Shown one piece after another: positions 9,894 to 62,770 of a stretch of DNA of 64,000 nt. This DNA is from Diploptera punctata. Taxonomy: Eukaryota; Arthropoda; Insecta; Blattodea; Blaberidae. The notes below the pieces were generated by a model, which had not been told where the DNA came from, did no database searches, and saw only the letters and a list, made by a program, of their open reading frames with translations. Both the position numbers and the translations under genes were made by a program. The DNA is taken from positions 1 through 64,000 of the forward strand of contig JASPKZ010007429.1 in NCBI GenBank assembly GCA_030220185.1, in the 5' to 3' direction. The stretch's first letter is position 1; the number at the start of each line of letters is the position of its first letter.

Positions 9894-10392
9894 AGATTTC
9901 AACATAAGGTTAGCACCCAAAAATGACTACAGCATCAGTAGACTGATTAGACCTAATAAGAATGAGAAAATTAAAGAAGAAAACAAATCAGGGATTTATC
10001 GAATTAAATGTGAAGAATGTGAGAAATTCTACATAGGAAAAACTAAGAGTAATTTGAAAACTAGAGTGAAAGAACATCTCAGGAATGTCAAGAAAGGGGA
10101 AGTAGAAAAATCTGCAGTGGCTGTCCATGCATGGTCTGAAAAACATCTTATCGAGAAAGAAGCTAAATTATTAAAACAAATAGAAAAAACCAAAAGAACT
10201 TACTGTTTGGGAAAAGATCTACATTCAAAAGACCGAAAAGAAGAAATTGATGAACTTTTAAATTCCCGGTGAGAATGACCTGGTTTCGAGGTTTTTCAGT
10301 CAGCCAATGGAAGGAGAGGAGGACAGCTCTTCAAGACGACATAACAACGGTGGTGACGATACTGAGGATGGAACAGAAACTATGTTCGGAAA
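9894..10392 (+). pseudogene. PLE GIY-YIG endonuclease domain and C-terminus
   Basis: After the frameshift, sequence reads SGIYRIKCEECEKFYIGKT, with GIY at 9991-9999 and YIG at 10029-10037: the GIY-YIG nuclease that, in PLEs, cuts target DNA to prime reverse transcription. KTRVKEHLRNVKKGEVEKSA and a basic coiled stretch follow to a stop at 10270-10272. Comparison with the copy at 10861-11153, which reads on through LMNFEIP, suggests the stop reflects a small indel near 10262: a second frame continues to a TAG at 10394-10396 inside the ribozyme-like motif. Confidence 0.85.
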
Positions 10393-10405
10393 CTAGTTTA
10401 TAGTC
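10355..10405 (+). ncRNA. Hammerhead-like ribozyme motif, PLE 3' end
   Basis: Parts in order: 5' stem I GACGATA (10355-10361), core CTGAGGA (10362-10368, fits CUGANGA with N=G), extra T, stem II GAACA pairing with TGTTC, then G, GAA (10389-10391), palindromic stem III ACTAGT, U at the cleavage position (10398) and 3' stem I TATAGTC. Stem I pairs 3 bp, one mismatch, 3 bp. The element's stop codon lies within the motif. Confidence 0.65.
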
Positions 10406-10584
10406 AAATAAGAAGAACAATATGAGGTGAGTGATAAAAAATATTCTACCTTAAGTAAGCATGATCCCTACATCTCAGTAGCAGTTAAAATTACTTTTGA
10501 ACAATAAAAATTAAAAGAGTAAAAGAGACAAATCACTGTATCACTGCTCTTTTTTCTTAGGATGATAATCCTATTTTTAACTTT

Positions 10585-10860
10585 TATAGGAATTAATCAC
10601 TATGAGGTTTAATTTATGGTGAAATTAAATGTTTCTTACCTCTCCTCATATTAATTTACTAGGTTGATCGCGATTTCGAGACTATAACTGTCTCATTATC
10701 AGAACTTTGTTGGTGGACTGATGAACCTCTGGATCAGGTCAAAATTTGTAAGAATTTCGAAGTTCATAAGTTTTCCTTTGTTTTTCTGAATGTGGATCTT
10801 TTCCCAAACCGTGAGTTCCTTTTGTTTGTCTATTTGTTTAATTGGACTGGCTTTTGATTC
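10585..10860 (-). mobile_element. PLE 3' end, inverted partner
   Basis: Reverse-strand PLE 3' piece: terminal motif GGAATTAATCACTATGAGGT at 10590, ribozyme-like motif at 10661-10707, then C-terminal coding sequence (WSEKHLIESKA, KGKLMNFEI) up to about 10860, where it meets the plus-strand copy head to head. Sequence is almost the mirror of 10861-11215, so the two arms can form a long hairpin. Confidence 0.88.
10661..10707 (-). ncRNA. Hammerhead-like motif, twin of 11105-11151
   Basis: On the minus strand: AAGTT, core CTGATAA (position 8 changed G to A), T, stem II GAGAC/GTCTC, GAA, palindromic ATCGCGAT as stem III, C, then AACCT. The core change should impair cleavage, while stem II stays perfect. 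Confidence 0.6.
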
Positions 10861-11215
10861 AATTAAATGTTTTTCGGACCAAGTATGAGCAGCATTTAAT
10901 TGAATCAAAAGCCAGTCTAATTAAACAAATAGACAAACAAAAGGAACTCACGGTTTGGGAAAAGATCCACATTCAGAAAAACAAAGGAAAACTTATGAAC
11001 TTCGAAATTCCCGCAAATTGTGACCTGATCCAGAGGTTCATCGGTCCACCAACAGAGGGAAGAAGAAAAATTTCTTCTGATCGACATAACACCAGTCGCC
11101 AACAAAGTTCTGATGATGAGACAGTAATAGTCTCGAAATCGCAATCAACTTAGTAAATTAATATGAGGAGAGGTAAGAAACATGTAATTTCACCATGTTA
11201 ATCCTATGTTCACCT
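10861..11215 (+). mobile_element. PLE 3' end, plus-strand arm of the inverted pair
   Basis: Codes for the last ~95 residues of a PLE protein: HLIESKASLIKQIDKQKELT, then LMNFEIPANCDLIQRFIGPP, then a Ser/Asp-rich C-terminus ending at a TAG (11151-11153). Non-coding sequence follows, with AATATGAGGAGAGGTAAG near 11160. The frame stays open to its stop, so this end is better preserved than the copy at 9894-10392. Its 5' truncation point is the centre of the palindrome with 10585-10860. Confidence 0.88.
11105..11151 (+). ncRNA. Best-preserved hammerhead-like ribozyme
   Basis: Every helix can be read. Stem I AAGTT (11105-11109) with AACTT (11147-11151), 5/5 pairs. Core CTGATGA at 11110-11116. One extra T at 11117. 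Stem II GAGAC (11118-11122) with GTCTC (11130-11134), 5/5, loop AGTAATA. GAA at 11135-11137. Stem III ATCGCAAT (AU/AU, loop CGCA). Expected cleavage after C 11146. The motif also codes the last residues of the PLE protein; the stop begins at its last base. The extra T between core and stem II departs from the textbook consensus. Confidence 0.75.
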
Positions 11216-12060
11216 GTTCATTTCCCAATCTATAGATTCAAGCTTTAGATATACCTAAAATTTATATAAAAGCATATTGACACACTGCATTAGATGCTTC
11301 TTACCTTGCAGTATTGCCTTCGAGTTGCTTCCTGAGTCACATAATATAAAATGAAACCATTCTGATGGACTCTGTAGTGTGATGCATACAATCCTTGATG
11401 AAATCGCCTTGCATCTTAGTAAGATGTTCATACCTTAATGGGAATCTTGGGCATGCTTGTAATTGGGTTCTACATCAAAAATTAAGAAGATAACTGCAAT
11501 TAAAAAGAATCGCAGGGAAAATGGTAGACGGGCAGAGGTTTTGGGGTCAAATCCGCATTCAAATGGAGATGATTTTTCTTGGTCTTCAATTATTTTTTTT
11601 GATAAGATTGAGGCTAAACTTATTACGATTGTAGATAAAATAATAATATAAAAATATAAATATAAAAATAATAATAAAAACTATAGATTGAATAAATCAA
11701 TAATTCATTATAAAACAAAGAGGGATTAAAAAAATTAAAGGAAAAATTACTATTAACATTGTAATATTCTATAAGAATTAAAAAAATCGACTGGTGATTT
11801 TGAAGAGTGACTGATATAAAGAAAAGAACATTTATCAAATTGCATATTGAAAATGCATACCATCAGCCAGCATTGGTTGAGTGGAAGAGAAGGCCTTATG
11901 GCCTTAACTCTGCCAGAATAAATAAAACATTATTATTATTTTTTTTTTCAAATGCCCCAGGTTTGTATTTCAACATTCCTGGTTTCTCTCCTGGCATGGC
12001 ATACTTTTAACCCACTTCTGAGGTTGGGGCGCCTGGAAGGTGGGTTACGTTGCCCCGATG
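11216..12060. other. Mostly unassigned, AT-rich; possible LINE 3' tail
   Basis: 11620-11800 is low-complexity AT-rich DNA. At about 11855-11945, AGAAGGCCTTATGGCC followed by a poly(T)-rich run resembles the 3' untranslated end of an insect LINE. Small open frames here have no recognisable motifs. Confidence 0.35.
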
Positions 12061-19900: not shown

Positions 19901-22900
19901 CCAACCTCCGACGGCGTAAATCGCCAATAACAAATTTGTAACACCCTCTCGATTATATTATAAGGGAACATTAACCAATGATATTTTTTGTTATGTGTGC
20001 CCAAGCACTGATCTCAGGTCCACGAGGTCGATATAGTGAGAACCAAGTTTACCTAATAGGTGAGGGAGACTTCTCCTAGTCACTTCTTTTACAGATTTAT
20101 ACAAAGTCACTTCATTCATACATCTATACAAAATCACTTCTTTTATACTTATAAAAAGTCACTTCGTCTACACATATAGACTGTTCGACACACTGGCAAC
20201 ATGGTCCCCAGTGGAAACTCAACACAAATTTTGGACTTAGCATTTTTCATCGAAATATCATGACTTAAACATTATTTTTAATTGCCCGAATATTTAGACT
20301 TCATAAGTGAAGTCATAAATCAGTGAGTGAGTAGGCCATCGAATAATTATTAACGGGGCAAACCCACAACGAACGACCTCGCCGATTGGAGATCAGTGCA
20401 AGGCAATTAAAACTAAAGCTTGTACAGTGTTCCAATATTTCGTGTGCTTCAAGCAAGAATAAAATACATTCAAAACAACGCATTCTACACAATAATTCTG
20501 CCCGATAAAGTCCTTGTGGAATCCCTGAGTGAGAACTCATGCCTACCGATACTTTGACCTGAGCGAACCTAACACCCAAATTCCCCAGTGAATCGGGGAA
20601 GTCCCTTTACGAATCCAGCGCCCACCAAATCCTCTACTATCCAAACCATCCCCGGAGTAAAATCCTTCTCCATAGTGTACAGCCATTTCTAATAAACATT
20701 TTAAAAATGTGACTTAATGATGGATTTCAGATGTATGACATGGCTAAGGTTCTTTAATAAATATTGTATAAAATATGTATGTGAGAATAAGGGGGTAGAT
20801 AAATTGTAAATATTTATTAAAAGAGCTCATATGCACGTTTTTAAATTTTAATAAACGAAAATAAATGAACATGTTTTATTTGTTTCCATTCTACCCTTTT
20901 GTTAAAATTAAAGAAAATCTGTAGGTCTGTGAGGCTGGGTACAAATAATTCCATAATTTAAGATTAAATAATATGTTATTTATTCCTATGAAAGTTCAAT
21001 TCCATGATTATTCACCAGATGGTGTTATATAATTATAATTCATAATGAGCTCATATGCACGTTTTTAAATTTTAATAAACGAAAATAAATTAACATGTTT
21101 TATTTATTTTTTTTCCATTTTTCCCTTCTGTTAAAATTAAAGAAAATCTTTAGGTCTGTGAGGCTGGGTACAATTAATTCCATAATTTGAGATTAAATAA
21201 TATGTTATTTATTCCTATAAAAGTTCAATTCCATGATTATTCACCAGATGGTGTTATAAAATTATAATTCATAATTTTACCACCAGATGGTGCTGAATTT
21301 CATATTAGTACCAGAAAAATTTAGATGTTGTAAGTTCTACAGTAGTGCCGCTTGTGGCATGTACGCAAAACTTGTCCACTTTCTTCTCTGGTACTCTGTG
21401 AGGACACCTGAATCATTGTTATATATATATATATATATATATATGTATTATTTAAGAAAGAAAAATTAATGCTTGAACTGGAACTTGAACCCTGGATCTC
21501 TGATTCTACGCATCAGTATGATACCAATTACACCATCCGAGCCATGATAACAATGTTAACATTTCTTTCCTCTTAATTTCTTAATTCAAATAAAAACATT
21601 GCAATCTAAATCATTACTTGATTCCAAAAGTAGTGGATTCTGGTTAAGAACACTGAAACTAATGTTAATGTATTGCATCACACTCACAACATGGCCCCCA
21701 ATGCTGTCATCTGTTAACCAGTAACATACAGTAGGAAGTAACATTAAGAGCTTTATCTAATAATTAACATATTTGGGCTGTGTGTTCTTACATCTTATGG
21801 TTGTTTTTGTTGAACATATGTTTCAAGGCTTCGGAGCCCCATTGTCAGCGATTACAGACTGATTTTTCTCAAGTTGTCGGTCCTGATTCTTGACTCCTGC
21901 TCCCTCTACGCGTGGTCCAATGAACTTGCTAATGAGATTCCTTCCTCTGGGAATCCAGGTTTTAAATGTATACATCTTCTTCTGCCCAATATTAAGTTTT
22001 GATTATCTTCCTCCATTCATCTCTATCATTCACCATCGTGCAGTTTCCTGTCCTTCATTAAATCCATAATTCCTTCTATCCATGTCTTCTAAGGTCTCCC
22101 TCTTTTTTTCCTCCGATTAGTAATCCACTCCGAACTCCTGGCAATCTAATGTTCATTCATCCTCTCCACGTGTCCAAACCATTGCAATTGTTTATTTCTC
22201 ATAAATTTTATTTCTGTTTCATTAAAGTTCATTTTTCTTGGATAATACTGATCCTGTCTAATTTAGAGCACTGTGCAGATCTTAAAAAACCATTTCTGTA
22301 GAAAGCAATTTTGACTTTAATTTGGTATTTATAGTTCACATTTCTGCTCCATAGGTCCTTAAACTTCTTACTATTGATTTAAAAATATGAATTTTATTTT
22401 TTTGAATATTTGTTTATCCCACAAAATATTAACTTTATAGTTTAAATAATTTAGTAGTTACGTGCAATTAAATATGCATATTGTTGTTTGTTCATATTAT
22501 CTTTATAGTTCAAATAATTTAGCAGTTATGCAATTAATTATACATATTGTTGTTTAGTCATATGATTTTTATCTTTCCTTTTTTTTATCATATTTAACCA
22601 TTTTATTAAGGTTATATTTGCTTGCATATTTCCCATCTTGGTTATAAACAATCAAACCGTAATCGTCAGCCAAGATGGAAGTGCCATAATAAATTTTGAA
22701 TTCAGCACATAAGACCTTTTATTCTATAATTAGATTTAAAATTCTGAAAGGGGCAGCTTGAATCAATTAATGCACTAGGCAATTAATTCTGGGTCAAGGT
22801 TAACAGATTTAAGTTGTGGCAGTGATATGTACCATTAAAACTTGAAATACAATATGTTTGTTTATTATTATGGCTATTACCACTTTTACTATTATTACTG

Positions 22901-25900: not shown

Positions 25901-28900
25901 ATACTCTAATAATCTGTCGTAAACTCATGTGCTCTCTTCCATTCGAATATTATCACTTTTCTTTAAAAAACACGTAAGCCCCATTTATATATATACATAT
26001 AAACTTTTGTCAGCATAAATACACAGCTTACTGACTACAGTCTAAAGATCCTAGAGGCAATATGATCTTTTCAGTTTGTCTCACCCAGATGGACAAAAAT
26101 GAGTCTGTTAGATGCATTTATGGTACTCAAAACTCTTATAATTGTTTTTATGCTGCCAGCACTTGCAAAATATTAAATTGGTGTCTACCCATGTCTCGTC
26201 CAGGTATAAATTCAGTCTACCCTCTTCTGTATACTTCCTTACTGTCGGGTACGTATCCACACCTCCAATTCATAACAATTTTCGTTTCAATGAACACTTC
26301 TTCCATATGTAACCCATTTTCTTTAGAATCTGTCATAATGTTGAACCTTCCATTTGAAATCAATTCTGTCTTTTAAAACATACAATAGTTTATTATAGCT
26401 TCATACTACTTTTTTTTTTTTTTGTTCAAATGTTGGATAGATGGAGTGAGAAGAAGTATGGAAGCTAGAGATTTGAGGGAAGAAGATGCTTTAGACAGGA
26501 ACCTCTAGCGACAAATCACTTTGGGTTGAAGGAGAAACACTGTATTGTGGAATATTCCTAATGTGTATATATATATATCTTCAATTATATACTCTATCCA
26601 CCCTCCAGTCAAAGTTGTCTACATTTGTGTTTCATTAGTCTAGATATATTTTTTTTCCTGTGACTACAAAACAATTTCTCTTCAGACGTTCTGTTCTTTT
26701 CTTATACACTTAATCGTTTTTGTGGATAAATTACTGTACTTTTCTGTCCTTGCTGTGGATCTTCTAAGTGGAATGCTAAGGTACAATTTAAGTACTCTAA
26801 CCTGTGAAAGACCAACGCAAAAGCTAACCTAACACAGTTTAAGTACTCTAACATGTGAAAGACCAACCCAAAAGCTAACCTAACACAATTTAAGTACTCT
26901 AACCTGTTAAAGAATGCAACACCCAAAAATAAATAGTAAGTTCTGAAGTTGATGTGTACATTTAATTAGTAAATACTTTATGTTGGCTGTACTGGATATT
27001 TGTTAAAATCAATATAGTTGATATATCTTCATGCTACATATGTAGTTAAGTATCATAGAAAAATATATTGAAATAACAGTTAGAAAAAATGTAAAAATCA
27101 TTGTAAATGTTGGGGAATAATTTGAAAAATGTAATCCTAAGAATAAAATTTGACAGCAGTTTATGAAGGAATTTATGAAGTCATGTCACGTGTTGTAAAG
27201 AACAGCTTCCAGCAACTATATCATCAACAATATTAGCTGTAACTAAAGCTATACTACTATATTACAAAGGCTTGCAGTATTTTGAAACTAATAAAGCACA
27301 ACTGAAACTTCAAAAGACACATGGAGTAAATGTTTGTGAAACAGGAATACATATTTCAGCTGACTTCTCCTGGCTTAACAACAGTAGTCTTAATTCTCGT
27401 GATCATAGTTTATATAAGTACCGCGCCATAGCAGAGTGGTTAAGGCAGGAAGCATTGGCGCAGAGCTACAGGACTTGGGCTAGTTCGAGTCTCGATGGGG
27501 AAGAGATTTTCTCTTGGTATTTCGGCCAGTATGGGACCGGTGCCCACCCAGCATCGTGAGGCATTTGGGTAGCTATAATAAGTAGCAGTTCCAGGTTGAG
27601 AAAATCAGCTATAATTGCTGGGGGAGTCGACATGCTGACCACATGTCACCCCTACACTGGGTAGATGATCGTCTATCTCTGGATTGACACATGTGGATGT
27701 GAGGCCAGCAGCCGGCTGGTAGGCTAAGGGCCTGTGCCATGGAATTATTATTATTATCAGATTATGGAGCATGGAATGGAACATACTTAGAAAGACAATG
27801 GAATAGTTCAATACAGGTCGTACAAATTGACTACATGAAATTTTTTTAAACATATTGTTAACTTAATAAAAAGTGTTGTCTATATTATTCTTACCTCATA
27901 TTGTTATTTCTGTTAGACATGTGTTTCGAAGCTTATTAGCCTCATCTTCAGTAGTTACATACTCTAATAAAAAGTGTTGTCTGTATAAATCTTACCTCAT
28001 ATTGTTGTTTCTGTTAGACATATGTTTCAAAGCTTGTTAGCCTCATCTCAGTAGTTACAGACTCTGTAAGTATTGTAACTACTGAATATGATGCTAACAA
28101 CCTTTGAAACATATTTAAATTAATATTGGGAAGTAAACATTATGAGGTTATATCATTAATAGAGAGCGGAGAACATTTTTAATGACTCACCTCATATAAT
28201 TTCAAATTTCTTTGATGCCGGCGGTTTTAGACAGTATCTTGTCCCTCTTCAGTCATGACTTCCACTGATGAAATTCTCTAATGACATCACCTCTTGTGCT
28301 GCCATCTTTGGTTGGGATTATAAACTTCGTAATTAAATTTTTATCCACCGGAATATCAAAGTTCATAGATTGATATTTATTCTTCTGAATGAATATCTTT
28401 TCCCATACAGACAACACATTTTATTAAGCAAAACCTCATAATGTTACTTCCTATTGGAATTAAAATTATTGTCAACTTATCAGCCTTTATCTAGTACTGG
28501 TAATTTTTCTTTATCATCATCATCATCCATGAATGGCCTGTTATGATTTCAAGGTTAGATTTTCAGTCTATTTCTTTTTATGGACAGGTATCTTTTTCCG
28601 TATGGGTGAAAATGAAGCATGGGATTTTGTCCATTGACATTCATTGTTCTTGAGTTTTCCAGGCAAAATTAATGCCATTATGTATACATGTGCACATTTT
28701 TAGTATTGTTAGGTAGATGTAAATTTGGTATCTAGTTGTAAACAATTGGTTTCTATATATTATAGAAAGAAGGCCAGAGCAGTGTGGGGAGCGAGCTCTT
28801 CTTGTTTGGTCACCAACAACTGATATTCCAGATTATAAATGTAAGTATTTAATTATAAATTATTTACAATTAAGAATTTACCTTAGATTTCGTGTAACTA

Positions 28901-31900
28901 AAAGAGAAATTTTTTAAAATTTTATAATACAATAGGAAGTAATATTAAGAGGTTTGTTTAATAATTAAAACATTTTGTCTGTTCATTCTCTAACAACTCT
29001 AAGAGGTAAGAATGAACAGACAAAATGTTTAAATTAATAAAAGAGAAATGTTGATCAAAAGATGGCAATCTTTCATTATAAAAATGCTACATCAAGAAAT
29101 GTAGACATGACTTCCACTGGAGTAAAATTCTCTGGGAATAAAATAGTGCCCTATTCAGATCTACAGCAAAGTTTTAAGCATAGGAACATGTAATGTTAGG
29201 ACAATGGAGGGGAGACACTAGAAATATTAACGTAGAGAGTAGATAAATCACTCATGAAAATCCTCACCTTGGATGAAGTTAGATGGTCAGGAGAAGATAG
29301 GGATCAAGAATCTTTGTTATATTATGCAGATGCAGTGAGACCAGAATTCAAAACAGGTTTAATCTGTAGTAGAATACTCTCAACTACTAGTAATAAGATT
29401 CTGAAAGATAAAGCATGATTTTGTAATTGTAAATAGTTATACAGAAAATAAGGAGATAATTTATTATTCCAATGGATTTATTAAAATTAATAATTCTATT
29501 TGATATTGTTTATTTTTTATTATTTCACTCACCTCATAATTCTATTTGATATGTGTACTTCCTCCAAATACGTTAATGTATATCCAAGATAGGTAAATTA
29601 ATTTACTGTTTCCAGTATTTTTGAATATATACAAATTTTGCTATGTACAGGGTATTTTCCACGAAAAGCCATTACTTTTACCTTACTTCTATACATAAAA
29701 GTAAAAATGGGCGAAAACAAGGAAATTAAATTCCCTAACACAATCAATGTTTAATTCTATTTTATTATTTCATGTTATGTTTAATTTGTATTAATATTGA
29801 GATGTTCTGTTGTTTCAGTGGATGAGTATATATCTCTGGCCAAAGAAAAATATGGATACAATGGTGAACAAGCATTGGGGATGTTATTTTGGCATAAGCA
29901 TGATCTTGAACGAGCAGTTCAAGATCTTGCCAACTTCACACCATTTCCTGATGAATGGACAGTTGAAGATAAAGTGCTATTTGAACAAGCTTTCCAGTTT
30001 CATGGAAAAAGCTTTCATAGAATTCGACAAATGGTAAGTATAAAGTACGAGGATGATTCGGAAAGTAAGTTCTCTCTCTCTCTCCAGAAAACACTATTGT
30101 GGGAACGTTTCTTACATCCAATGAAAAATACACATTTCAATTATTTTTCAACATAATTTCCTTTTATATTCAAACATTTGTAATAATGCTTCACAAACTT
30201 CAAAATCACTTCTGTGTAAAACTCTGCCAACCGTGACTGTAGCCATCCATTGATACTCTCCTTGGGCTCCCCTCATCTGTTTGAAACCGCTGCAATCCAA
30301 GCCATTTTTTCATGTTTGGGAAAAGGTGGAAATTGCTTGGAGCCAACTCAGGACTATATGGTGGATGATTAAACACCTCCTGTTTCAAGAGGTTTGCTGG
30401 TGGTGTTTTGGACTTCAGACAGAATGTTCAGCATCCAACGAGCACAAAATTTGCAGTAATATAACCTTGTGTCACCACTTTGTGCTGAACAGTGGGGCTG
30501 ATTTGCAGAAATTTTTCTCATATTCAGAAATTGTGAAATGACGATTCTGGCTACTTCATTCACTATTGCAACAAGTTTGTCATTCACAACAGACAGCAGA
30601 CACTTTGATCTTCATCATGGACATTAGTGCACCCATCTCAAATTCCACGACACCAATGTCAAACACCACCACCACCACTCATGTCCCTGTACACTACAGT
30701 AATCTAACGATGAATTACTGCTACTGTCAATTTTTTTGCTCACACAAACCGTATTGCTCCATGTACCTCACACTTGGTGGAAGCTTCTATAGTTAGACAT
30801 TTTAAACACCTGCCTTAACGAGAAAAAAGGCCAAACGCAAACACACAGTTATTCTGCTGGTACCATATTGAACCCATCAACACAATGGAAGGAAGATAAG
30901 ATGACGATACTACTGCCACTTAATTAATATGTATGAGTTAGTTATTTTGACATCTCGTATTATTTTTTATATTCTGCCGACTATAGTTTCATCGCATCTA
31001 TGTGACATTGTCGATGCATTCTAACTGTTGTATTTCTGGTTGTCATCCTTTAGATTGATTTCTACTCCCTCTGTTGGCTGACCGATAAACTTCCAATCAA
31101 TTTTTTTTCCCTTTCCCCGGGAATTTCAAAATTTATAGTTTTCTCCTTATTCTTGTGGATGTAAATTTTCTCCCCAATTTGTGAGTTCCTTAGATTTATC
31201 TAACTCTTTCAGTAATTTGACCTTTGTTTCAATTCTGTGTTTTTCTGACCATGCATATGCAACTATAGCAGACTTTTCTATTTCACCATTTTTAACATTT
31301 CTAAGATGTTCTTGCAATCTTGTATTCTGCCACTTGTTTGTCTGCCATTCATTTGCATAACGAATGAGACCGGAACTTACTTTCTGAAATGGAAACTTAA
31401 AAATGCTTATGAGATAACTAATTTGCTTATAAGATCAAAATTGTATGTAACATTTTTTAAAGAAATCTTGCATTTCCAATTTATGCATTGTGGTGTTTCA
31501 TTTATGGTGAAGTTCAGACACATGCAATTGCTTTCAATACAGTATTAATGAATTGTATCCTGCTGGAATTTGAATTTAGGCTAAATAATGATGAATTGAT
31601 ATTTAATTTTAGGAAGTTATATTTTGAGGTTATTTTAATTATATTATTTTTGGTCTGGACATCTTACCTCAATATTAATGTTGATTTGTTCTTGGACATG
31701 TTTCAAAACAATTCTGTTTTATCTTCAAGAACAATTCAACATTAATATTGAGGTAAGATGTCCAGACCAAAAATAATATAATGATGAATTGTCTTGAATT
31801 TATACTAAATAATGATGTGTCTTCTTACATTAAATTAATTGTTGTTTCAGTTACCTGATAAATCTATAGCGAGTCTAGTGAAATATTATTACTCATGGAA

Positions 31901-32346: not shown

Positions 32347-35300
32347 TTAATTTATAAATGAGTTGGAGAAAATATTTTTATATCTCACCACATAAAATTC
32401 CCTGTTTTCAAGATTCTAGTTTCAAAGGTCATTGAGGATGAAGGTAAAATGACCTTTGCAACTGGTAATAATGAAAAATAGAACTTCATGAGATGAGATA
32501 TAAAAACATTTTCTCCAACTAATTTATAAATTGAAAATTCCTCATAATGTTACTTCCCACTTTAATTTTAATTAAATAGTAATAATAATATTTTTGGATG
32601 TGAAAAACCAAAGAATATTAGTATCGTAGTGCAACTTTATTGGGATACCAGGAGACAAATGAAGCAAATCATTTCTGCCATTAGAAACCAACCATAATAT
32701 ATTTGTAAATAATAGAAAAAGATCAATATCAAAATTAAGCAAGTTAGATATTGAGTGGGAGAAAAAAAAATAATGGCAGTAATATGGAAAATGAGATTAA
32801 TTGATTTGGACAATTAAAAAGAATACAGCAAAGAAGAATACCAAAGAAAGCTATGAAGAAGCAATTGAAAGAGAGAAAAAAGATGAAAATTCAAGGTCCA
32901 GATAGCTAGATTATGTTAAAATTAATCTAGAGGTGTTATAAATGGGAAGTAATCAAAGAAAAAGAAAGGTGGTTGAATTGAACTCTGTGGAGGAGGCTAT
33001 TGTTCTGAGATAACCTACACATAAGAAGAAATGCATGATGATTGATAATAATGACGATCCTCTTAAGCAGAATACTGATATTAAAATGTATCTCAGCTAG
33101 GCGTATAAAGAAAGATATCTCCAAAATTGTAAAGAAAAGTTGTATATCTACAAATTTTTTTTTGTGCTACAAAAATATATTTATATTAAAATGCAGAGGG
33201 ATACCTGGTTAAATAATATGCTACAGGATTCTAGTCCTATTGGATCAGGATTTCTAACAGGCCTAAACCTTCTGGCGGCTCCATGGACCTGAGTTCGACT
33301 CACCCTAACAGAACTGAGTAACAAGCATATGTTCTGGGATAAGGTGGCTGACATGTTATGCTAATTGTCTAGAAAGATGGGAGCCTTAACTTCTTACCAT
33401 CCCAAGGGCCTTCTAAGTCTTGTACTGGGTTTCTGGTGGGTAAAGAAGTGTAATTTATATTTGAAGAGAAAAAATTATACGCTCAGACTGGGGCTTGAAC
33501 CCAGGACCTTTCACACTAGGCGAATGCTATAACTGAGTGAGTTACCTGAGCAGGTTCCAATCTAAATGTCTTACATACACTGTTAATTCCTGTGCACCAA
33601 ATATTATGAAATCTTTGCTTCTATCTTGCAAATGGCGGCTTCTTTATTAAGAAGACATTTATTTGGGAATTTTATATTACATTATAAGCCAGTATGGCTT
33701 CTTTCGATGTTTTTATTATTCATTTCATATATCTCAGTGATGGATAAAAATATCTAAATGTAATTTAGTTGGAGAAATCTCTACAGATCAATGTGAGATA
33801 TATTGAAAATTAAAAATATTCTATACTCTTCTCAAATTAAATTAATATTAAGAAGCTAAAGCTATTACTATGATTGAAGTAAGTAAATTAATGTACACAA
33901 CTAAATTATTGTAATCAATGGTAAAGAGAAATCCCATTTCAGGCAAAAAATTTTTCTCTTTACCATTGATTTCAAATCTTCTCAAAGTTGGTGCATTTGT
34001 TCAAAAGATGTTGCCAACATCACAAACATTCCTAGGGTGTATTGAGTTCAATACTGGGTGACTGAGCAATAATGTCTATGCTAATTAAATATGGAATAAA
34101 TTACATCTGTAGTTCAAAAATACAGAACAAACTGGAGAGATCACATTCAATTAATGCCAGACTCGAGGATATTGAAAACTGCTCTACACTACAATCAAAA
34201 AGGACAAAGAAATACAGGCCAACCATTGAAGAGATGATGTGAACAACTACTTTGAGATGGAACTTTTGATGATGATGATATAGTTAAATGCATTAATTTG
34301 ATAATGGACTGCTATATTCTCCTCTTTTGGAATTGTTAGAAGTTTAATATTTTGTTAATTGAATCAAAAAATATGTATATGTTCTAATGCTACCCACTGC
34401 CCTTTTGCTTAGGAGCGTATTTAGCATTAATGTGGATTACCACTACCAAACAAGAAAGTAAAATCCAAGCAGCCGAGATGAAATTTTTAAGAAGAGTAAA
34501 AGGCTGCACTAGAATGGACCAGATAAGAAACGAGGATATCCGTGAAGAACTGCAGATCTATTCCATAAAAGAAAAGATGTTTAACAACAAGATACAGTAG
34601 AAAGAACATGTAGAAAGAATGGAAGAAAGTAGATTACCAAATAAAATCTTCCATTATTTCTCAAGATGAAGAAGAGATGTCGGACGTCCTCGGAAGAGAT
34701 GGTCTTATATCTATTAGTGAAGATGGAACAGGCAACTCTTGCCTAAACCAGGAAGTGAAGAAGTGGTCTATTCTCAATTTATACAACATTTTGGGAGACC
34801 ATATTATGTAGGCGATGTGTATTTGTATTGTATAATATATAATGTCCTCTGCAGTACTTACCATTGGTACTGATTTGACTGAACGAGTGGGGATATTAAG
34901 CTCTCCTTCATCATCCCTCATACAACATGTATTACATAAATATATATCTAAAAATACACTCATCCTACTCTCCTCTCATTATTCAATACACATCACCTAT
35001 GTAACATATTCTCTCTAAGAGGCGCAATCCATCTCTCTAAAGCATGAATAGTGATGTGGGTAACATTGGAAAGCACAGTCTTAAGTAAAGTCCATTCTGT
35101 CACTGGCTAACATAATTACAGTGCAGGGAGTCATAATCTATGTGATGCATTCCCTTAACTTTAGTTTCAGTTTCCTAGTTCTCAGTTCATATAGCTGCTC
35201 AATTGTCTTCAAGTAAAATGTTTTATCACTCATCTCATATTATTCCATCAAAAGATGGAAGTGAAGTGTAAAGTTCCGAAACTAGTTAAAAAAAAAGAAT

Positions 35301-36784: not shown

Positions 36785-36982
36785 GAGTTTGTATTCTTTA
36801 ACATTCTTACCTCATATGTTTATTCTGTTGGACGATCGTTTCAAAGCTATTGCTCCATCTTCAGCTTGTGAACAAGCAATAGCTTTGAAACGATCGTCCA
36901 ACAGAATAAACATATGAGGTAAGAATGTTAAAGAATACAAACTCAAATATTAAATTAAACCTCATAATGTAACTTCCTAATG
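36785..36982. mobile_element. PLE minimal palindrome
   Basis: Arms ATTCTTTAACATTCTTACCT and AGGTAAGAATGTTAAAGAAT with CTGTTGGACGATCGTTTC / GAAACGATCGTCCAACAG, about 75 bp each, around a centre at 36865-36873. Right side ends AACCTCATAATGTAACTTCC (36960). Little more than ribozyme plus terminus remains. Confidence 0.88.
36831..36864 (-). ncRNA. Hammerhead-like motif at the palindrome centre
   Basis: Minus strand: CTGAAGA, T, stem II GGAGC/GCTTT (5 pairs, two G-U), loop AATA, GAA, ACGATCGT palindrome, C. Stem I is weak. Confidence 0.62.
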
Positions 36983-37119: not shown

Positions 37120-37405
37120 ATTTAAATGTTTCATGCCTCACCTCATATCCAGTCTTCTAACTAGACCACGGTTTCAAAGCCTAGGCAGTTTCATCTTCTA
37201 CTGATCATCGATCCACCAACCAGCCAGAGGGAAGAAGTAGTTCTTCTGATCGACATAACATCAGTCGACGAGAAATTACTGAAGATGAAGCTGCTCAGGT
37301 GTTGAAACCGCGGTCTAATTAGAAGACTGGATATGAGGTGAGGTATGAAACATTTTAGTTTAATCTTAAATTAAATCTCATAGTGATTTTTTCCTATAAA
37401 AGTTC
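37120..37405. mobile_element. PLE inverted pair
   Basis: Arms TTTCATGCCTCACCTCATAT / ATATGAGGTGAGGTATGAAA and CCAGTCTTCTAACTAGAC / GTCTAATTAGAAGACTGG. The right arm also carries C-terminal coding sequence (SSSDRHNISRREITEDEAAQ) ending at TAG inside the ribozyme-like motif. Confidence 0.85.
37274..37320 (+). ncRNA. Hammerhead-like motif
   Basis: Stem I AATTA (37274-37278) with TAATT (37316-37320), 5/5. Core CTGAAGA at 37279-37285, extra T, a degraded stem II, GAA (37304-37306), ACCGCGGT palindrome, C 37315. The frame stop TAG follows immediately. Confidence 0.6.
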
Positions 37406-39599: not shown

Positions 39600-40610
39600 T
39601 TGAATTGGTTAAAATTTTTTACGTTCACCTCATGAAGTTCCATGGTTTTTTTTTTTTTTTTTTACGATATCCGTTTCAAAGGGCATTTGCCTTCATCTTC
39701 AGTCAAATTCCAACTGTTGAAATTTTGCCGTTACCATCATCGTCCGAACTAGCATCTGTTACTGATTTTATGAACTTCGAGATTAAATTTTGCTCGCCAG
39801 GAACTTCAAAATTCATTATCTATATTTGTACTTCTGAATGTATGTTTTTTCCCAAACTGTTAATTCCAAAGGCTTCTCTAAATGTTTGAAAAGTTTAGTT
39901 TCTTTTCCAATTATGTGATTCTCTAGCAAACTATGGGCTGCAATTGCTGGTTTTTCAATTTCACTATTTTTAATATTTCTAATGTTCTCATGTGCAAGTC
40001 TCTAAATTCCTTATAGTTTTCTCTATATATAAGCGGCTTCGTGGTGCAAGTTCTCTCACCGCTGGGGTCCCGAGATCGAGTCTTGTTACTCCATGTAGGT
40101 TTCATGTTGAATGAAAATGAGCTTGGGCAGGTTTTCTTCAGGGCTTTCTCCCGTTTTCCCCTGCCATAATTTCATTCCACCATTTCTCCATACTCGTCCA
40201 TTTCATTTCATTTCATTTTGTTCATCTGCTCCTGTATGTCAGGTATGGTCAGCCAACACCCTTGTCGTTCACAGACCTCTATATACGGGTTTCATCTCAT
40301 CTCTCGACCCGAGGCTGAGTTGGACATGAGTTGAGTATATATATACACTTTCTTGCAGTCATTGCAACTAATTTGATAAATTCCAGATTTCTTACTATCT
40401 GGGACATTAGCCTTTTCATTAGTTATTAATAGATTACCCAGATTAAATTTGTTAATCGGTGCCAATGTAATATTAAATTTGTTAATTTTTTTTTTTATTT
40501 CCTGTGTGTTCCAGGGTGTTAAGTCATTTTCTTGAATTGTTTCTCTTCCTTGGGTGGTGCATTCTTTCAAGTATTTTGTTCTTGTTTGAATTTCTTTAAC
40601 ATATGCTAAT
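39600..40610 (-). pseudogene. PLE 3' portion, interrupted by a SINE
   Basis: Minus strand from 40570: NDLTPWNTQEIKKKINKFNI, then SKKSGIYQISCNDCKKVYIY with the GIY half of GIY-YIG. Reading is cut near 40335 by a SINE insertion and resumes at about 40025 (ENYKEFRDLHMRTLEI). The 3' part has a hammerhead-like motif at 39664-39702 (CTGAAGA, T, stem with bulge, GAA). Ends near 39620 at TTCACCTCATGAAG. Confidence 0.82.
40026..40335 (+). repeat. SINE6 inserted in the PLE
   Basis: tRNA-like head GGCTTCGTGGTGCAAGTTCT, GAGATCGAGTC (B-box-like), body TTTTCCCCTGCCATAATTTC, TCATTTCATTTCATTT, tail CATGAGTTGAG. TATATA tracts flank both ends (probable target duplication). The only copy I see here. Confidence 0.75.
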
Positions 40611-40739: not shown

Positions 40740-41000
40740 CTAATGGATTTTGGTTTGGGAAAACCCCACATAAAAAAACAAGGAGAAAATAATGGATTTT
40801 AAAATTAGCGGGAATGTGATTTGATTTGGAGGATCGTCAGCCTACCGACAGATGGAGGAAGAAACAGTGCACCAATATGACAGAACAAGTTGTGAAAATA
40901 CTGAAAATGGAACCAATGTGGTTCTGAAACTGATCTAAATAGAAGACAGAGTACGAGATAAGGTGATAACATTTTTTCTTAAGTTTATTAAATGGTGTAA
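40740..41000 (+). mobile_element. PLE 3' end
   Basis: Starts near TTTGGTTTGGGAAAACCCCA, decayed C-terminal coding, ribozyme-like motif, then AGTACGAGATAAGGTG. A 3' end without an obvious inverted partner. Confidence 0.75.
40895..40940 (+). ncRNA. Hammerhead-like motif with strong stem II
   Basis: CTGAAAA (position 8 changed G to A), T, stem II GGAACC/GGTTCT (6 pairs, one G-U), loop AATGT, GAA, ACTGAT, C. Stem II is the clearest in the set. Confidence 0.55.
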
Positions 41001-47659: not shown

Positions 47660-47810
47660 TATTTTAAAAATACATTAGGAAGTAAAATTAAGGGGTTTAT
47701 TTAATAATTAAGATATTTAGTCTGTGTATTCTTACCTCCAACCATAAGAGGTCTGTAAAAGCTGAAAATGGGGCTCACAAGCCTTGAAACTTATGTTCAC
47801 AAGTAATGCC
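47660..47810. mobile_element. PLE 3' end fragments
   Basis: AGGAAGTAAAATTAAGGGGT at 47669, TATTCTTACCTCCAACCATA at 47727, then a plus-strand ribozyme-like half. Counterpart words (ACAACCATAAGAGGTAAGAA) recur at 48797. Confidence 0.7.
47759..47800 (+). ncRNA. Hammerhead-like motif
   Basis: CTGAAAA (G8 to A), T, stem II GGGGCT/AGCCTT, loop CACA, GAA, ACTTATGT, T. Same stem as 21811-21848 with a different loop. Confidence 0.5.
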
Positions 47811-48484: not shown

Positions 48485-48974
48485 ACCAGCATTACAGGTT
48501 ATTAATTCATTTTTTCAGAAACAACTCCGTAAAATCAGTATTTAAAACACATTTATCAAATGTGTAGGTCGAAGGAATCTGTTCATTATTTGATATATTC
48601 AATATATTTGTTAGAGAGTCAGTCACTCCAAAATAATGCTCTGACCTGTTCAGAGGAGGAGCTTTCTTTATTTTGGTAATCAAAATTTGTTAACTATCGA
48701 GGTGAAACATGACTCTGATTGGTTGTAAAACAAAATTCATTGAAACATGATTGATCATTGACTCTCATTTGGGGCATAAGTTAAATAGTCAACAAAAAAC
48801 AACCATAAGAGGTAAGAATACACAGACCATATATCTTAATTACTCTTTTATGTGTTTCAATTATTGGTTGTTTGGTCCCAGTGGACTAATGATTACTAAG
48901 TTTGCCTCTGGTCCCAAGGTTCATTGATTCAAACGTGACTAGGATTGATGGATTTTTTTAAGGTGTAAAAATAA
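48485..48974. other. Mostly unassigned; one tRNA-like block
   Basis: 48865-48960 (CCCAGTGGACTAATGATTAC, AAGGTTCATTGATTCAAA) looks like a decayed tRNA-derived SINE head. ACAACCATAAGAGGTAAGAA at 48797 is a PLE end. Confidence 0.4.
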
Positions 48975-50230
48975 TTCATTCAAATGGAAATAAAGATAAC
49001 TATCGTGGAATTAGCTTGTTGAACTCTGGATATAAAATTTATGCTAATATAGTTAAGAATAAATTGAGAAAAATTTATGAAAATATAATTGGAGAAGAGC
49101 AGAATGGATTCAGAAAGGGTAGATCTTGTACAGATGGATTCTTTACTCTAAAACTACTATTAGAAAAGCACAAGGAATTCAATATAGAAACTCATATCGC
49201 CTTCGTTGACTTCATAAAGGCTTTTGACAAAGTAGACAGAAATATATTACTGCAAATTTTAGCTGATGATAACGTTCCACAACAATATATTACTAATATC
49301 TTCAACATCTATAAAGATAATGAAATCTCTGTTAAACAAGATGGCAAATTATCTTCTTGGGAAAAGATCAACACTGGAGTAAGACAGGGATGTGGACTTT
49401 CACCGGTGCTTTTCATTATATACATGAATAAATTAATAAATGAATGGAGGAAAACACAACGAGGATATATACCCATCAATAGGAACCTCAAACTCGATGC
49501 TATTCTTTTTGCAGACGATTTAGCTCTTCTGGCACTTTCCGAAAATGATTTGCAACGATCAATTTATAATTTACAAAAAATAGGTGCCAAATTTAATATG
49601 GAAATATCAATTAACAAAACTAAAATTATGGCATTTCATGGGAAGGACCCCATACAAAGTAAAATCTGTCTCCAGAATAAAATTTTAGAGAGATCTAATC
49701 AATTTAAATATCTTGGATATTATCTCTCTATCTGGGATGAAAACGATATCCCTGAAAAAGTCACTAGTTATAATAAAAGTTTAGGAATTATTAATCAAGT
49801 TATGAAACCATCCCTTGTTCAAAAAAACGCCAGATTACGTTTATATAACACTTTGGCTAGACCAGTGTTGACCTATGGTAGTGAAGCATGGACACTAAAA
49901 AAAAACATGAAAGCAGAATAACGGCTTGTGAAATGAGATTCATGCGCAGAACAGCGGGTTACACCAGATGGGATCAGAAAAGGAACACCGATATCTTAAA
50001 AGAATTGAAGACTACGCCAATTTTGGAATATATTAAACAGTACCAACTAAATTGGAAACACCATCTTGAAAGAATGAGTTCAAATCGGATCCCCAAAGCT
50101 GTTTATAATTATATACCAAGAGGACGAAGATCACTGGGCCGTCCTATGAAACGCTGGAGGGAAAATTTTCTATAGGATCGTAACAGGCCTTGGCCTAATA
50201 CTTGGAAGGAAGAAGAAGAAGGAAAATAAA
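48975..50230 (+). pseudogene. LINE-C reverse transcriptase, one frameshift from open
   Basis: Open from about 48984 to 49921. RT landmarks: NYRGISLLNSGYKIYANIV, GEEQNGFRKGRSCTDGFF, AFVDFIKAFDKVDR (catalytic Asp), [20 protein letters not shown], and FADD at 49508-49519. A run of nine A (49897-49905) shifts the frame; the continuation from 49888 reads RITACEMRFMRRTAGYTRWD and RGRRSLGRPMKRWRENFL to a stop at 50173-50175, then a (GAA)n tail. The N-terminal endonuclease is missing (5' truncation near 48960). Nearly identical to 15285-15612. Confidence 0.92.
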
Positions 50231-50489
50231 CCCTAGAATCCCATGTTGTAGATTAATGGAATGTGAAAAAAATGTAAGATCTGAATTAAGAAATCACTGA
50301 GCAAAATTTGTTGACTCTTTCATGTACAGATTTGAATTATTAATGCTAATGACCTCACTTGTTAAGAGTGTGAAATTAATTAAAATAACTATTGGTTGAC
50401 TATTGAGTTTCAATCTGCCGTGCTACTCTGGTGGTAGTACGCCTGCTTCCTGACTTGCAGCATGGGATGTTAATTATATAATTTTTACC
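50231..50489. other. Unassigned; tRNA-like block at 50420-50470
   Basis: GTGCTACTCTGGTGGTAGTA and TTGCAGCATGGGATGTTAA resemble a decayed tRNA-derived head. Confidence 0.35.
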
Positions 50490-50862
50490 TGGTAAGTCAG
50501 TCATCCTCAACTAATTTATTAAACTTCTTCAAGTTATTCTAATATGGAGGCTTTCGAAAACAATATTTCATCTTCTGCATTTTAGCTGGAACTGATGATG
50601 TTATATAGGTTGTATAACGGATTTATGTCTGCGGTTATGTTCTCGTTGAGTAGGTCTTTATTCCTTGCTTCTTTTAAATAAAGACCTACTCAACAAAAAC
50701 ATAACCGCAGACATAAATCTGTTATACAACCTATATAACACCATCAGTTCCAGTTAATATGCAGAAGATGAAACATTGTTTTCGAAAGGCCTCCATATTA
50801 GAATAACTTGAAGAAGTTTAATTATTTAGTTGAGGACGACTGACTTACCAGGTAAAAATTAT
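50490..50862. mobile_element. PLE long inverted pair
   Basis: ACCTGGTAAGTCAGTCATCC (50489) pairs with GACTGACTTACCAGGT (50840). Arms of ~170 bp include CTTCTTCAAGTTATTCTAAT / ATTAGAATAACTTGAAGAAG and AACCGCAGACATAAATC with its inverse. A loop at about 50665-50680. Confidence 0.9.
50755..50800 (+). ncRNA. Hammerhead-like motif with 7-bp stem I
   Basis: Stem I TAATATG (50755-50761) and CATATTA (50794-50800), 7/7 pairs. Core CAGAAGA (U4 to A), T, stem II GAAAC/GTTTTC with one bulged U, GAA 50784-50786, AGGCCT palindrome, C 50793. The core change would be expected to abolish activity. Confidence 0.6.
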
Positions 50863-50864
50863 AT

Positions 50865-51045
50865 ATATTATTTTTGGTCTGGACATCTTACCTCAATATT
50901 AATGTTGATTTGAGTCTGGGAAAGCTGACGATAAAACAGAATTGTTTTGAAACATGTCCAAGAACAAATCAACATTAATATTGAGGTAAGATGTCCAGAC
51001 CAAAAATAATATAATTAAAATAACCTCAAAATATAACTTCCTAAA
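50865..51045. mobile_element. PLE palindrome, sister of 31613-31792
   Basis: Same arms (ATTATTTTTGGTCTGGACAT and inverse) and the same terminus (TAACCTCAAAATATAACTTCC, core CTCAAAATATAACTTCC). Inserted at the edge of the previous pair. Confidence 0.88.
50925..50958 (+). ncRNA. Hammerhead-like motif, intact core
   Basis: Core CTGACGA (50925-50931, N7=C), extra T, stem II AAAAC/GTTTT (5/5), loop AGAATT, GAA 50949-50951, ACATGT, C 50958. Stem I is weak here. With 11105-11151 it is one of the few with both an intact core and intact stem II. Confidence 0.68.
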
Positions 51046-52365: not shown

Positions 52366-52795
52366 TAGTATTTATGATGTTTTTATTATTAATTTAACAT
52401 TTCTCAATGAAAGATAAATTAAATTTGAAGAGAAAAATTTTCGTTCGAGTCCCGGTCTAGGCGAAAATTTTTCTCTTCAAATTTAATTTATCTTTCATTG
52501 AGAAATGTTAAATTAATAATAAAAACATCATTAGAGGCCTTACTGGCTTTTAAAGTAATGTTAAATTTCCAATAAATGTCTTCTTAACTAAGAAGCCGCC
52601 ATTTGCAAAGATAGAAACAATGGTTTCAAAAGCATTTGGCGATAGGGAATTACAACGTATATAAGAGAAAAATTTGCGTCTAGATCGTAACTCGCCTCGG
52701 TAGCTCAGTTGGTAGAGCACTTGGCCCGGAAAACCAAGGGTCCCGGGTTCGAGTCCCGGTCTAGGCGAAAATTTTTCTCTTCAAATTTAATTTCC
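52366..52795. repeat. SINE4 pair with near-complete tRNA-like head
   Basis: Reversed tail (TTTAACATTTCTCAATGAAA), a joint at 52440, then a full plus copy: body AAATGTCTTCTTAACTAAGA, GCCGCCATTTGCAAAGATAG, tRNA-like head 52695-52768 (A box TAGCTCAGTTGG, B box GGTTCGAGTCC). It folds like a tRNA but the anticodon-type loop reads CCCGGAAAA, with no U33, so it is not a working tRNA gene. Confidence 0.88.
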
Positions 52796-59289: not shown

Positions 59290-59480
59290 ATAAAAATGAA
59301 AATGTACCTGTTGTCAGGTGCTGTCGTCCTCAACTTTGTTAAAATTATGTATTTAAAATATTAGTTGGAGGCCTTTCAGAAGTTAACTTCCATCATCAGC
59401 AGGATGATGAAGTGGAAGTAATGTGATGTGGATTGATACCACACATCATTAGCAACCCTTGAAAACATATTTGAAGAAAT
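59290..59480 (-). mobile_element. PLE end nested in the hAT-like element
   Basis: CTGTTGTCAGGTGCTGTCGT, then TTAGTTGGAGGCCTTTCAGA. A short partial plus-strand copy at 59425-59470 (CACACATCATTAGCAACCCT) follows. Confidence 0.65.
59362..59405 (-). ncRNA. Hammerhead-like motif, intact core
   Basis: Minus strand: CTGATGA, extra T, stem II GGAAGT/ACTTCT (6 pairs, one G-U), 2-base loop TA, GAA, AGGCCT palindrome, C. Stem I is only TG/CA. Confidence 0.66.
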
Positions 59481-61207: not shown

Positions 61208-61690
61208 TAAACATCCTTATTATATTTAGTAAAGTATTTCATCCATGTGCAAATTAAGTTATTTTCTAGATTTATTAAAATATGTAGCAGATTTAACTAT
61301 AGGTAAAAAAGACAAAATATCATTTTATGTCATGACAAATTTTAAGATTCACTATTTTCTTAAACCATGGAATAGATAAGTAAATAGTTTAGGTTTGTTG
61401 AATGTTAATAGCTGTTTTAACTACAGCAGTTTTTAACCATGTAGTAGTCTGTGAAGATAATTAAATGCAGATGTTTTAATTTTAGGGAAAATTGGAGTGA
61501 GTAAATGTTAGCAAGAATATTTATTAAGAAATAGGTTATGAGCATTATGTTCCCAAGTCAGAACAACATTTGAAATCCATTAACAGATGTGAATTAATTG
61601 ATTGTGCAGTATGGGGAGGAGAGGTGATTGTGATCATCCCCATTGTATTTTTTTTTCTAAAAAGTGAGAGAGATCTTTAGGTCATATTTT
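61208..61690. other. No feature recognised
   Basis: AT-rich, no landmarks. Confidence 0.4.
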
Positions 61691-61694
61691 CATT

Positions 61695-61990
61695 GTTTTT
61701 ATTATTCATTTCATACATCTCAATGATGAATAAATCATATTTGAAGAGAAAAATTATATGCTCAGACTGGGGCTTGAACCCAGGACCTTTGGCTTTCTGG
61801 GCCAATTATCTACCGACTGAGCTATCTGAGCAAGTTCCAATGTAAATGCAAATTCAAATTTCTCTTATATATATTGTTAATTTTCCTGGGCCCCATAGCT
61901 ATGAATGCTTTGCTTCTAACTTGCAAATGGCGGCTTCTTTATTATGTTATTATATTGTATTATTATTTTATAATTTTTCTCTTCAAATAT
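61695..61990 (-). repeat. SINE4 copy
   Basis: Plus-strand view: GTTTTTATTATTCATTTCAT, ATTTGAAGAGAAAAATTATA, reversed tRNA-like head (GGGGCTTGAACCCAGGACCT, CTGAGCTATCTGAGC), then CAAATGGCGGCTTCTTTATT. Confidence 0.82.
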
Positions 61991-62039
61991 CATATTTTCA
62001 TGTTGCATCCTAGCAAACATTTTTATTTTGGAGAATATT

Positions 62040-62770
62040 TCATTATTGATTTAATGGATCTGAACACTAAATAAGGTGAATCTGGTTTCATCTTACCTCA
62101 TAAATCATTGTATACTATTTGAACATGTTTTTATATTTAAGAACCCTGGACCTCTCGTCTTCCATACGAGTGTGCTGTCCATTGCACCATTTAAATGACG
62201 ATACAAACATTAACATTTCTTTCATCTTTATAATTCTCTTCAAATATGATTCTTCTATTCAGAAGTATTTTTTATTGAGAATTTATACATTAATTTTTTA
62301 ACGGTAAAGCTTCATATTTTTGGTGTTTTTATTTAGATTAACGTTTGAATCCTGCACCTCTCGTTTTCCGTACAAGTGTGCTGTCCATTACACATAGAAG
62401 ATGTCAGTTGGCATGATGGTGGCGACAGCTATTAGCCTTCGGATGAACAATAATTATAAAGTTGAAAGAAATGTTAATATTTTTGTCATTTGAATGGTGT
62501 AAAGGACAGCACACTCGTACGGAAAATGAGAGGTCCAGGGTTCAAATGTTGGTTTAAATAAAAACAGAGAAAATGTTTTGATATGTTATCTATATCATCA
62601 TCACTTGTCCATACTGTTGAATTTTATGTTGTTGACCCCGGACAAGCTGATGATATTATAGATGGCATATTGAAACATGTTCAAATAGAACACAGCGATT
62701 TATGAGGTAACATGAAATCAGACTCACCTTATTTATTAAGAAGAACCTCATAATGTTACTTCCTTTTGTA
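62040..62770. mobile_element. PLE inverted pair interrupted by SINE5 copies
   Basis: Left terminus GAATCTGGTTTCATCTTACC (62079) and right GAGGTAACATGAAATCAGAC (62704) are inverted; TTGAACATGTTTTTATATTT on the left matches the right-arm ribozyme region. Between them are SINE5 fragments (minus at 62140-62230 and 62335-62395, plus at 62396-62580). Ends AACCTCATAATGTTACTTCC at 62745. Confidence 0.78.
62641..62682 (+). ncRNA. Hammerhead-like motif, weak stem II
   Basis: Core CTGATGA (62646-62652), T, stem II only TAT/ATA, GAA, ACATGT, T. Core intact, stems poor. Confidence 0.45.

Follow-up and report, generated by a model that had tools for sequence, protein, structure and literature searches.

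The terminal repeats of Penelope-like elements (PLEs) hold hammerhead ribozymes of a minimal type I form, whose stem III is tiny or missing, in thousands of copies per metazoan genome (Cervera and De la Pena 2014, via PMC7761336 and PMC6155905; here and below, statements on published systems refer to excerpts of the cited articles). Small PLE variants cleave as dimers (Lunse, Weinberg, Breaker 2017, via PMC6466107, PMC7761336 and PMC10085705), for which a palindromic stem III loop and a tandem arrangement are needed according to PMC6466107, citing that work. For PAc, a Poseidon element of Anolis, the hammerhead cuts, with its protein, and insertion in vitro is templated mainly by uncut RNA (PMC11167929). 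The role of PLE hammerheads is called unknown in the review PMC7761336. Here we analyzed 64,000 nucleotides of the cockroach Diploptera punctata (GenBank assembly GCA_030220185.1, contig JASPKZ010007429.1, positions 1 to 64,000; hereafter the window), in which motifs of this kind recur beside PLE remnants. Their core, pairing and covariation support the view that the motif is hammerhead-type and belongs to PLEs. Very probably the copies are minimal type I PLE hammerheads that have a palindromic stem III, act as dimers and stand one at each end of complete elements.

Hammerhead motifs at the ends of Penelope-like elements

Motif scans covered positions 7601–64000 on both strands, with a satellite array excluded (14–7523; period 144 bases, ~52 copies, 80% matches), and genome counts refer to the 3.12-Gb assembly. 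All 11 core letters, pairing ignored, were present at 9 sites, compared with 0.65 expected per shuffle. Scanning with a descriptor of core plus stem II, with 20 dinucleotide shuffles as control, gave 18 matches at a score of at least 24 (0.1 per shuffle), 21 at a score of at least 22 (1.1 per shuffle) and 28 at a score of at least 20 (4.0 per shuffle). This excess indicates about 20–24 real copies, so that the family proposed in an earlier, sequence-only reading of this DNA is real and its count of ~26 was somewhat high. A covariance model trained on the nine intact-core window copies matched 23 places at the reporting threshold of E<0.03, 14 of them outside the training set (Table 1). The ten sites singled out by that reading divide into seven solid ones (11105, 27911, 40895, 59362, 50925, 21811 and 47759; model E ≤ 1.5e-5, 4 of the 7 being training copies) and three weak or doubtful ones. 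Site 32432 is decayed (TTGAGGA, GCAA; model E 0.0074) and site 47186 is borderline (model E 0.8). Site 15007 reached a descriptor score of 27.4 but has U at C3, was unmatched by the covariance model at E≤10 and had neither a tail motif nor a PLE protein match beside it in the window scans; as a hammerhead it is doubtful. As had been proposed, position N7 is seen as A, U, C and G, in the intact copies at 27951, 11110, 50925 and 10362, respectively.

Across the genome, the pattern CTGANGATN{12,18}GAAACN{4,6}GTC, which fixes the core and the outer stem III letters and leaves stem II free, matched 5525+5441 = 10,966 places, compared with 13+18 = 31 for the reversed pattern. The same core, CUGANGA ... 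GAA ... H17, thus recurs far beyond the window. Viral contigs searched with the motif pattern gave 14 matches and no relative.

The association with PLEs is visible in a tail motif, TATGAGGTRAG, which occurred 26 times in the window with at most one mismatch, compared with 0–5 (mean 3.1) in 10 shuffles. Upstream of these 26 anchors, the core was present with at least 9 of 11 letters at 11, at least 10 at 7 and all 11 at 6, levels that random anchors reach in 12%, 1.5% and 0.35% of cases; two further tail anchors, 28001 and 36913, carry a damaged or half copy. The statement that the motif stands at nearly every PLE 3' end was therefore too strong. PLE content of the window amounts to one 5'-truncated element with a reverse transcriptase (RT) and a GIY-YIG endonuclease (8490–10272), plus C-terminal scraps. 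Copies of this RT elsewhere in the genome are 91–97% identical (150 of 63,604 candidates scored), and the only named relatives of the RT fragment (3 of 15 matches) were D. punctata hypothetical proteins, the best with 93% identity over 31% of the query.

Among 10 genome loci fetched, three (L061, L063 and L068) contain a unit with one hammerhead at either end. The order at L063 is hammerhead, tail, an open frame of 840 codons (stop to stop) and second hammerhead, with 2645 bases from hammerhead to hammerhead and an upstream repeat that starts about 57 bases before the first one; at L061 and L068 the reading frame is interrupted. The motif therefore belongs to the terminal repeat at both ends of an RT and GIY-YIG element, of which most window copies are truncated and keep the 3' end only. 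With RT plus C-terminal GIY-YIG, short terminal repeats, head-to-head copies and an optional tail, the element is of the Penelope/Poseidon type by structural features (PMC3846280).

Stem pairing and the stem III palindrome

The outer part of stem II formed 4–5 of 5 Watson-Crick pairs in 7 of 9 core-selected sites, compared with about 1 in 13 sites after shuffling. In the nine intact copies, 85.9% of the cells of stems I, II and III were paired, compared with 63.6 ± 2.9 in shuffles and 29–40% when the strands were slid, a control that favours the drawn structure because it was drawn on these sequences. Two-sided changes were found in 9 of 11 pairs, and stem I was weakest (66.7% of cells paired).

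We next consider stem II among copies whose 3' strands were dealt at random among copies or families. At the tail-anchored copies (11 of 26 anchors, core at least 9, three head-to-head pairs included), 39/55 pairs formed compared with 24.9 ± 3.1, and 0 of 5000 deals reached this. One copy from each of 15 window families gave 57/75 Watson-Crick pairs compared with 34.5 ± 3.7 (0 of 10,000 deals reached it); here members were model matches, 21 of the 23 being listed (36857 and 62553 left out) and 28052 skipped for its core deletion, with families assigned by eye. Similarly, 78 distinct genome copies among the first 100 listed of 10,966 formed 238/390 pairs compared with 154.5 ± 7.9 (maximum 185 in 5000 deals), and 55 distinct genome stem types formed 156/275 compared with 95.9 (maximum 125 in 5000 deals). 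The stem II covariation claimed from the window is thus borne out there and is also present in the genome sample, by dealing tests that are not tree-aware.

The sequence-only reading spoke of a short stem III. What we found there is no small hairpin but a varying self-complementary palindrome that would close only between two copies. In the window, the palindromes between GAA and H17 are ACAUGU, AGGCCU, ACUAGU, ACGAUCGU, AUCGCGAU, ACAUAUGU, ACCGCGGU and ACCCUGGGU (the copies with the last having a model E of only 1.4), and they differ by family; ACUGCAGU, ACACGUGU and ACCAUGGU were additionally seen in the genome. GAA was immediately followed by a palindrome of 6 or more bases in 6 of 9 core-selected sites and in 0 of about 13 shuffled sites. 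At the exact post-GAA offset it was present in 13 of 30 listed copies (weak matches and inverted pairs included), compared with a mean of 1.7 at other offsets, some of which, nested offset 1 among them, reach 6–9. The inner four bases, free in the genome pattern, were palindromic in 48 of 73 distinct genome copies (from the 78 above), compared with 7.6 by column shuffling (maximum 15). Since 6–8 bases without a loop cannot fold back, the stem III helix must form between two copies.

These features point to a mechanism in which each copy provides both strands of the core together with a stem II hairpin. Two copies would pair palindrome to palindrome into a double hammerhead, as in the published model (PMC6466107), and each core would cut the strand of the other copy after H17. 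Complete elements have a hammerhead at either end, and the 3' copy lies at or close to the final codons and stop codon of the RT-endonuclease gene. Sense RNA transcribed from an element that is complete or in tandem could thus cleave itself into unit lengths whose ends fall near that stop.

Several observations weigh against this interpretation. Rfam release 15 hammerhead models gave nothing at gathering score, none at E≤10 on the whole window and no hammerhead match on L063; RF00163 (Hammerhead_1) aligned in place at 36830–36865 with 11.2 bits (E 7) with only 121 bases as input, below its gathering score of 34 bits. The general hammerhead models of Rfam thus miss these cockroach copies. Only the nine training copies among the 23 model matches have an intact core; the remaining 14 have an altered core (several times G8 to A, also C3 to U), indels or half a motif and should be dead, so that the majority of the copies in the window are dead relics. 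When single copies were folded by minimum energy, the full hammerhead was mostly absent, and among the predicted dimers 10702, 36864 and 10362 formed the stem III duplex and most others paired differently. None of 65 sampled genome copies starts at the cleavage site. Finally, 31 of 32 neighbouring pairs stand head to head (first 100 listed), so that, outside complete or tandem elements, one transcript rarely holds two sense hammerheads.

Insertion, ancestry and gene ends

The 33 bases directly after the cut have 2165+2183 = 4,348 exact copies in the genome. The sample of 65 copies from 60 regions was drawn from the first 100 of these listed, and all 65 carry the 33 post-cut bases by selection. 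Of these, 55 keep the whole motif with at most 4 changes (35 of them identical except at H17), another 5 contain a short indel, and the other 5 are broken: L093, L096, L122 and L127 end inside the motif, L096 with the break nearest the cut, and L123 (minus strand) lost about 13 bases. We therefore rejected the idea that ribozyme cutting is recorded in where copies begin; since none starts at the cut, insertion seems to use RNA uncut at the hammerhead site.

This result, together with the uncut RNA favoured by PAc, agrees with the motif serving in reverse transcription or integration as a signal in DNA or RNA, perhaps an RT binding site, about 25–35 bases before the conserved tail. As a replacement for the ribozyme such a signal is very improbable, because a binding site would not need 11 hammerhead core letters and the PAc motif does cut; the two roles can coexist.

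The tail itself may bear on insertion. Some tails run on into TGAATATACCTCATA and other copies end after ACCTTAA. That sequence falls within the loop of a putative TATGAGGT/ACCTCATA hairpin, perhaps the start site of reverse transcription. The TATGAGGTRAG that follows hammerheads, e.g. at 10421, 27900, 36816 and 62701, can pair with the downstream ACCTCATA. Another tail family, TAAGAGGT..ACCTCTTA, occurs at 3172 genome places (reversed control 202), compared with 1692 for the mixed pair (control 31), all tail-pair counts being inflated by inverted neighbours. ATGAG/GTRAG, about 25–35 bases after the cut, was also considered as a start codon plus splice donor and rejected; at L063, three AG sites lie between it and the MADIT start, none of which puts the gene in frame (by eye).

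Neighbouring pairs less than 5 kb apart within one subfamily comprised 31 head to head, 0 tail to tail and 1 direct. A head-to-head arrangement, described for rotifer Penelope (PMC3846280), places the ribozymes on opposite strands; for one transcript to be cut from within, its element must therefore be complete or tandem, and failing that two transcripts are required. Head-to-head inverted PLE 3' ends in the window lie at 10616–11196, 36776–36953, 37110–37369, 38951–39360 and 50475–50865.

Descent from a common ancestor could by itself repeat the motif among related PLE copies, and stem II might pair without selection for RNA structure. The copies are not independent, because many represent the two halves of a single head-to-head insertion or are closely related, and the strands were dealt among copies or families and not along a tree. 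This explanation is very improbable given the pairing excess that persists with one copy per window family and over distinct genome stem types, and given palindromes that vary in sequence yet remain palindromic.

In elements with an open frame, the final codons of the RT-endonuclease gene extend into the 3' hammerhead. The frame of the commonest RT subfamily (...TEDGTETMFRN-stop) is read through the hammerhead, with UAG inside the palindrome ACUAGU and the predicted cut two bases behind the stop. In the window, frame 10842–11153 continues across hammerhead 11102 to a stop seven bases beyond H17; in L062 (at 2077; 50925-like family), the hammerhead lies 24 bases after the stop. Among 31 distinct sites from 30 loci, searched on both strands, 9 showed likeness to the PLE C-terminus at E≤1e-3, 6 of them in frame xCT-GAN-GAT. 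With the motif left out, 7 of 31 did so, 4 in that frame and 3 in other frames, 27–68 bases away, which may be frameshifts; the likeness reached to 1 and 4 bases from C3 at L047 and L041. Two results count against a general overlap: 22 of the 31 sites lack the likeness, and xCT-GAN-GAT is not the most open frame upstream (summed open codons 666, 343 and 345, the coding frame last; 22 of 30 loci parsed, four locus pairs sharing a site, leaving 18 distinct). Overlap is therefore seen only now and then in decayed copies. Least probable of all is that CUGANGAU merely encodes x-(D/E)-D-(G/E) at the PLE protein C-terminus with hammerhead likeness as a by-product, for although in several families the gene continues into the motif without a change of frame (TEDGTETMFRN; 10842–11153; L041, L047, L051 and L057), this leaves the stem pairing, GAAAC and palindrome beyond the stop unexplained, the family of L062 has its motif behind the stop, and the 22 sites without upstream protein likeness still match the core.

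We found no description of a hammerhead placed over a PLE gene end or stop codon in a limited literature search, which does not establish its absence from print, and no paper that mentions Penelope along with the Diploptera punctata genome. With the ribozyme set into the gene end and the stop codon within or next to the palindrome, two transcripts that pair, or a single one that pairs end to end, might be cut just behind the stop, and the cut might so act as a copy-number sensor, an unlikely proposal: few transcripts would stay whole and be translated and inserted, and many would pair, be cut and lose their tails. The genome offers thousands of copies in many families, covarying palindromes, complete two-ribozyme elements and the gene-end overlap, which makes the dimer model and the effect on the mRNA directly testable.

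Other window features and comparison with known systems

Two direct 101-base units on the minus strand (27864–28065) each hold a hammerhead, one intact and one with a core deletion, and could be the source of an intramolecular dimer or a retrozyme-like unit. Hammerhead 50917–50966 is flanked by perfect 49-base inverted arms of PLE tail (50864–50912; complement from 50965; span 50864–51013). A head-to-head pair at 14899 (−) and 15011 (+), TTGAGGATGCCAGA..TCTGGTGAAACGTCGGGG, is hammerhead-like and lies outside the covariance model. GAAACGTCGG ends other PLE lineages. A second RT at 48962–50175 (RVT_1, E 1.4e-38 on 48962–49918) is unlike the PLE RT. Four tRNA-Ser calls (38363–38437, 41706–41779, 52693–52768 and 61758–61832) fall within repeated sequence (families D4, D7 and I6) and are probably tRNA-derived SINEs (short interspersed nuclear elements). 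Weak Rfam microRNA matches at 10818–10944, 36802–36927 and 52406–52499 coincide with near-perfect inverted repeats.

Table 1. PLE coding remnants and covariance-model hammerhead matches in the window. Training status refers to the covariance model.
Feature	Positions	Strand	Evidence
Penelope-like RT, interrupted, 5'-truncated copy	8490..9893	+	RVT_1 E 1.4e-8 on 9216-9890
GIY-YIG endonuclease, same element as 8490 RT	9868..10272	+	PF01541 E 3.6e-8
Hammerhead, intact core (N7=G), stem III ACUAGU; 3' end of 8490-10272 element	10354..10406	+	E 6.4e-8; training
Hammerhead, G8 to A, stem III AUCGCGAU; inverted partner of 11102	10658..10710	-	E 4e-8; not training
Hammerhead, intact core (N7=U), within end of open frame 10842-11153	11102..11154	+	E 5.6e-10; training
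Hammerhead, G8 to A, stem III ACAUAUGU	21805..21856	-	E 1.5e-5; not training
Hammerhead, intact core (N7=A); unit of 101-base direct tandem	27908..27959	-	E 1.2e-10; training
Hammerhead, one core base deleted; second unit of 101-base tandem	28009..28059	-	E 8.1e-8; not training
Decayed hammerhead, G8 to U; inverted partner of 28009	28074..28123	+	E 1.3e-4
Hammerhead, C3 to U, stem III ACAUGU	31687..31733	-	E 5.3e-7
Decayed hammerhead, C3 to U, GCA for GAA	32422..32475	+	E 0.0074
Decayed hammerhead, stem III ACUAGU	35241..35295	+	E 0.0021
Hammerhead, intact core (N7=A), stem III ACGAUCGU	36823..36872	-	E 1.1e-9; training
Half hammerhead, inverted partner of 36823	36857..36906	+	E 0.02; inverted repeat
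Decayed hammerhead, inverted partner of 37271	37156..37206	-	E 6.7e-4
Hammerhead, intact core (N7=A), stem III ACCGCGGU, weak stem II (2/5 Watson-Crick)	37271..37323	+	E 3.1e-10; training
Hammerhead, intact core (N7=A), stem III imperfect palindrome	39658..39710	-	E 1.8e-9; training
Hammerhead, G8 to A, 7-bp stem II	40893..40943	+	E 6e-9; not training
Hammerhead, G8 to A	47754..47805	+	E 1.3e-6
Decayed hammerhead, inverted partner of 50754	50539..50585	-	E 0.0012
Decayed hammerhead, U4 to A, stem III AGGCCU	50754..50801	+	E 1.3e-4
Hammerhead, intact core (N7=C), stem III ACAUGU	50917..50966	+	E 1.7e-10; training
Hammerhead, intact core (N7=U), stem III AGGCCU	59360..59407	-	E 2.9e-9; training
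Decayed hammerhead, inverted partner of 62639	62553..62612	-	E 0.022
Hammerhead, intact core (N7=U), stem III ACAUGU	62639..62689	+	E 1e-9; training

The kind of ribozyme is already known: the sequence-only reading had placed hammerheads in PLEs in principle, and minimal dimer-acting PLE hammerheads, with dimer action and a palindromic loop III, are already published (PMC11167929, PMC7761336, PMC6155905 and PMC6466107). Nothing we tested sets the cockroach copies apart from the PLE hammerheads of Cervera and De la Pena, and an overlap with the gene end goes unmentioned in the excerpts of PMC7761336 and PMC6155905. The very short stem III of the dimer variants of Lunse 2017 recurs likewise in the cockroach copies, known here from sequence; in contrast to the tandem arrangement of those variants, the sampled cockroach neighbours are mostly head to head.

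Retrozymes resemble these copies in having type I hammerheads in small repeats (PMC7761336), and 27908/28009 form a 101-base direct tandem. Complete cockroach units differ in encoding an RT-endonuclease, as L063 does, and are thus not non-autonomous, geneless units, although the 27864–28065 tandem could differ; in the cockroach copies stem III is also not stable in a single copy. PAc shares with the cockroach element RT plus GIY-YIG, a hammerhead at the junction of terminal repeat and gene, insertion of apparently uncut RNA and a tail (PMC11167929). The ACCTTAA end inside a possible hairpin is also like PAc, whose reverse transcription starts inside a stem loop (PMC11167929). The two differ in placement: the PAc hammerhead overlaps the start of its gene (PMC11167929), whereas the cockroach hammerhead overlaps the end and the stop codon.

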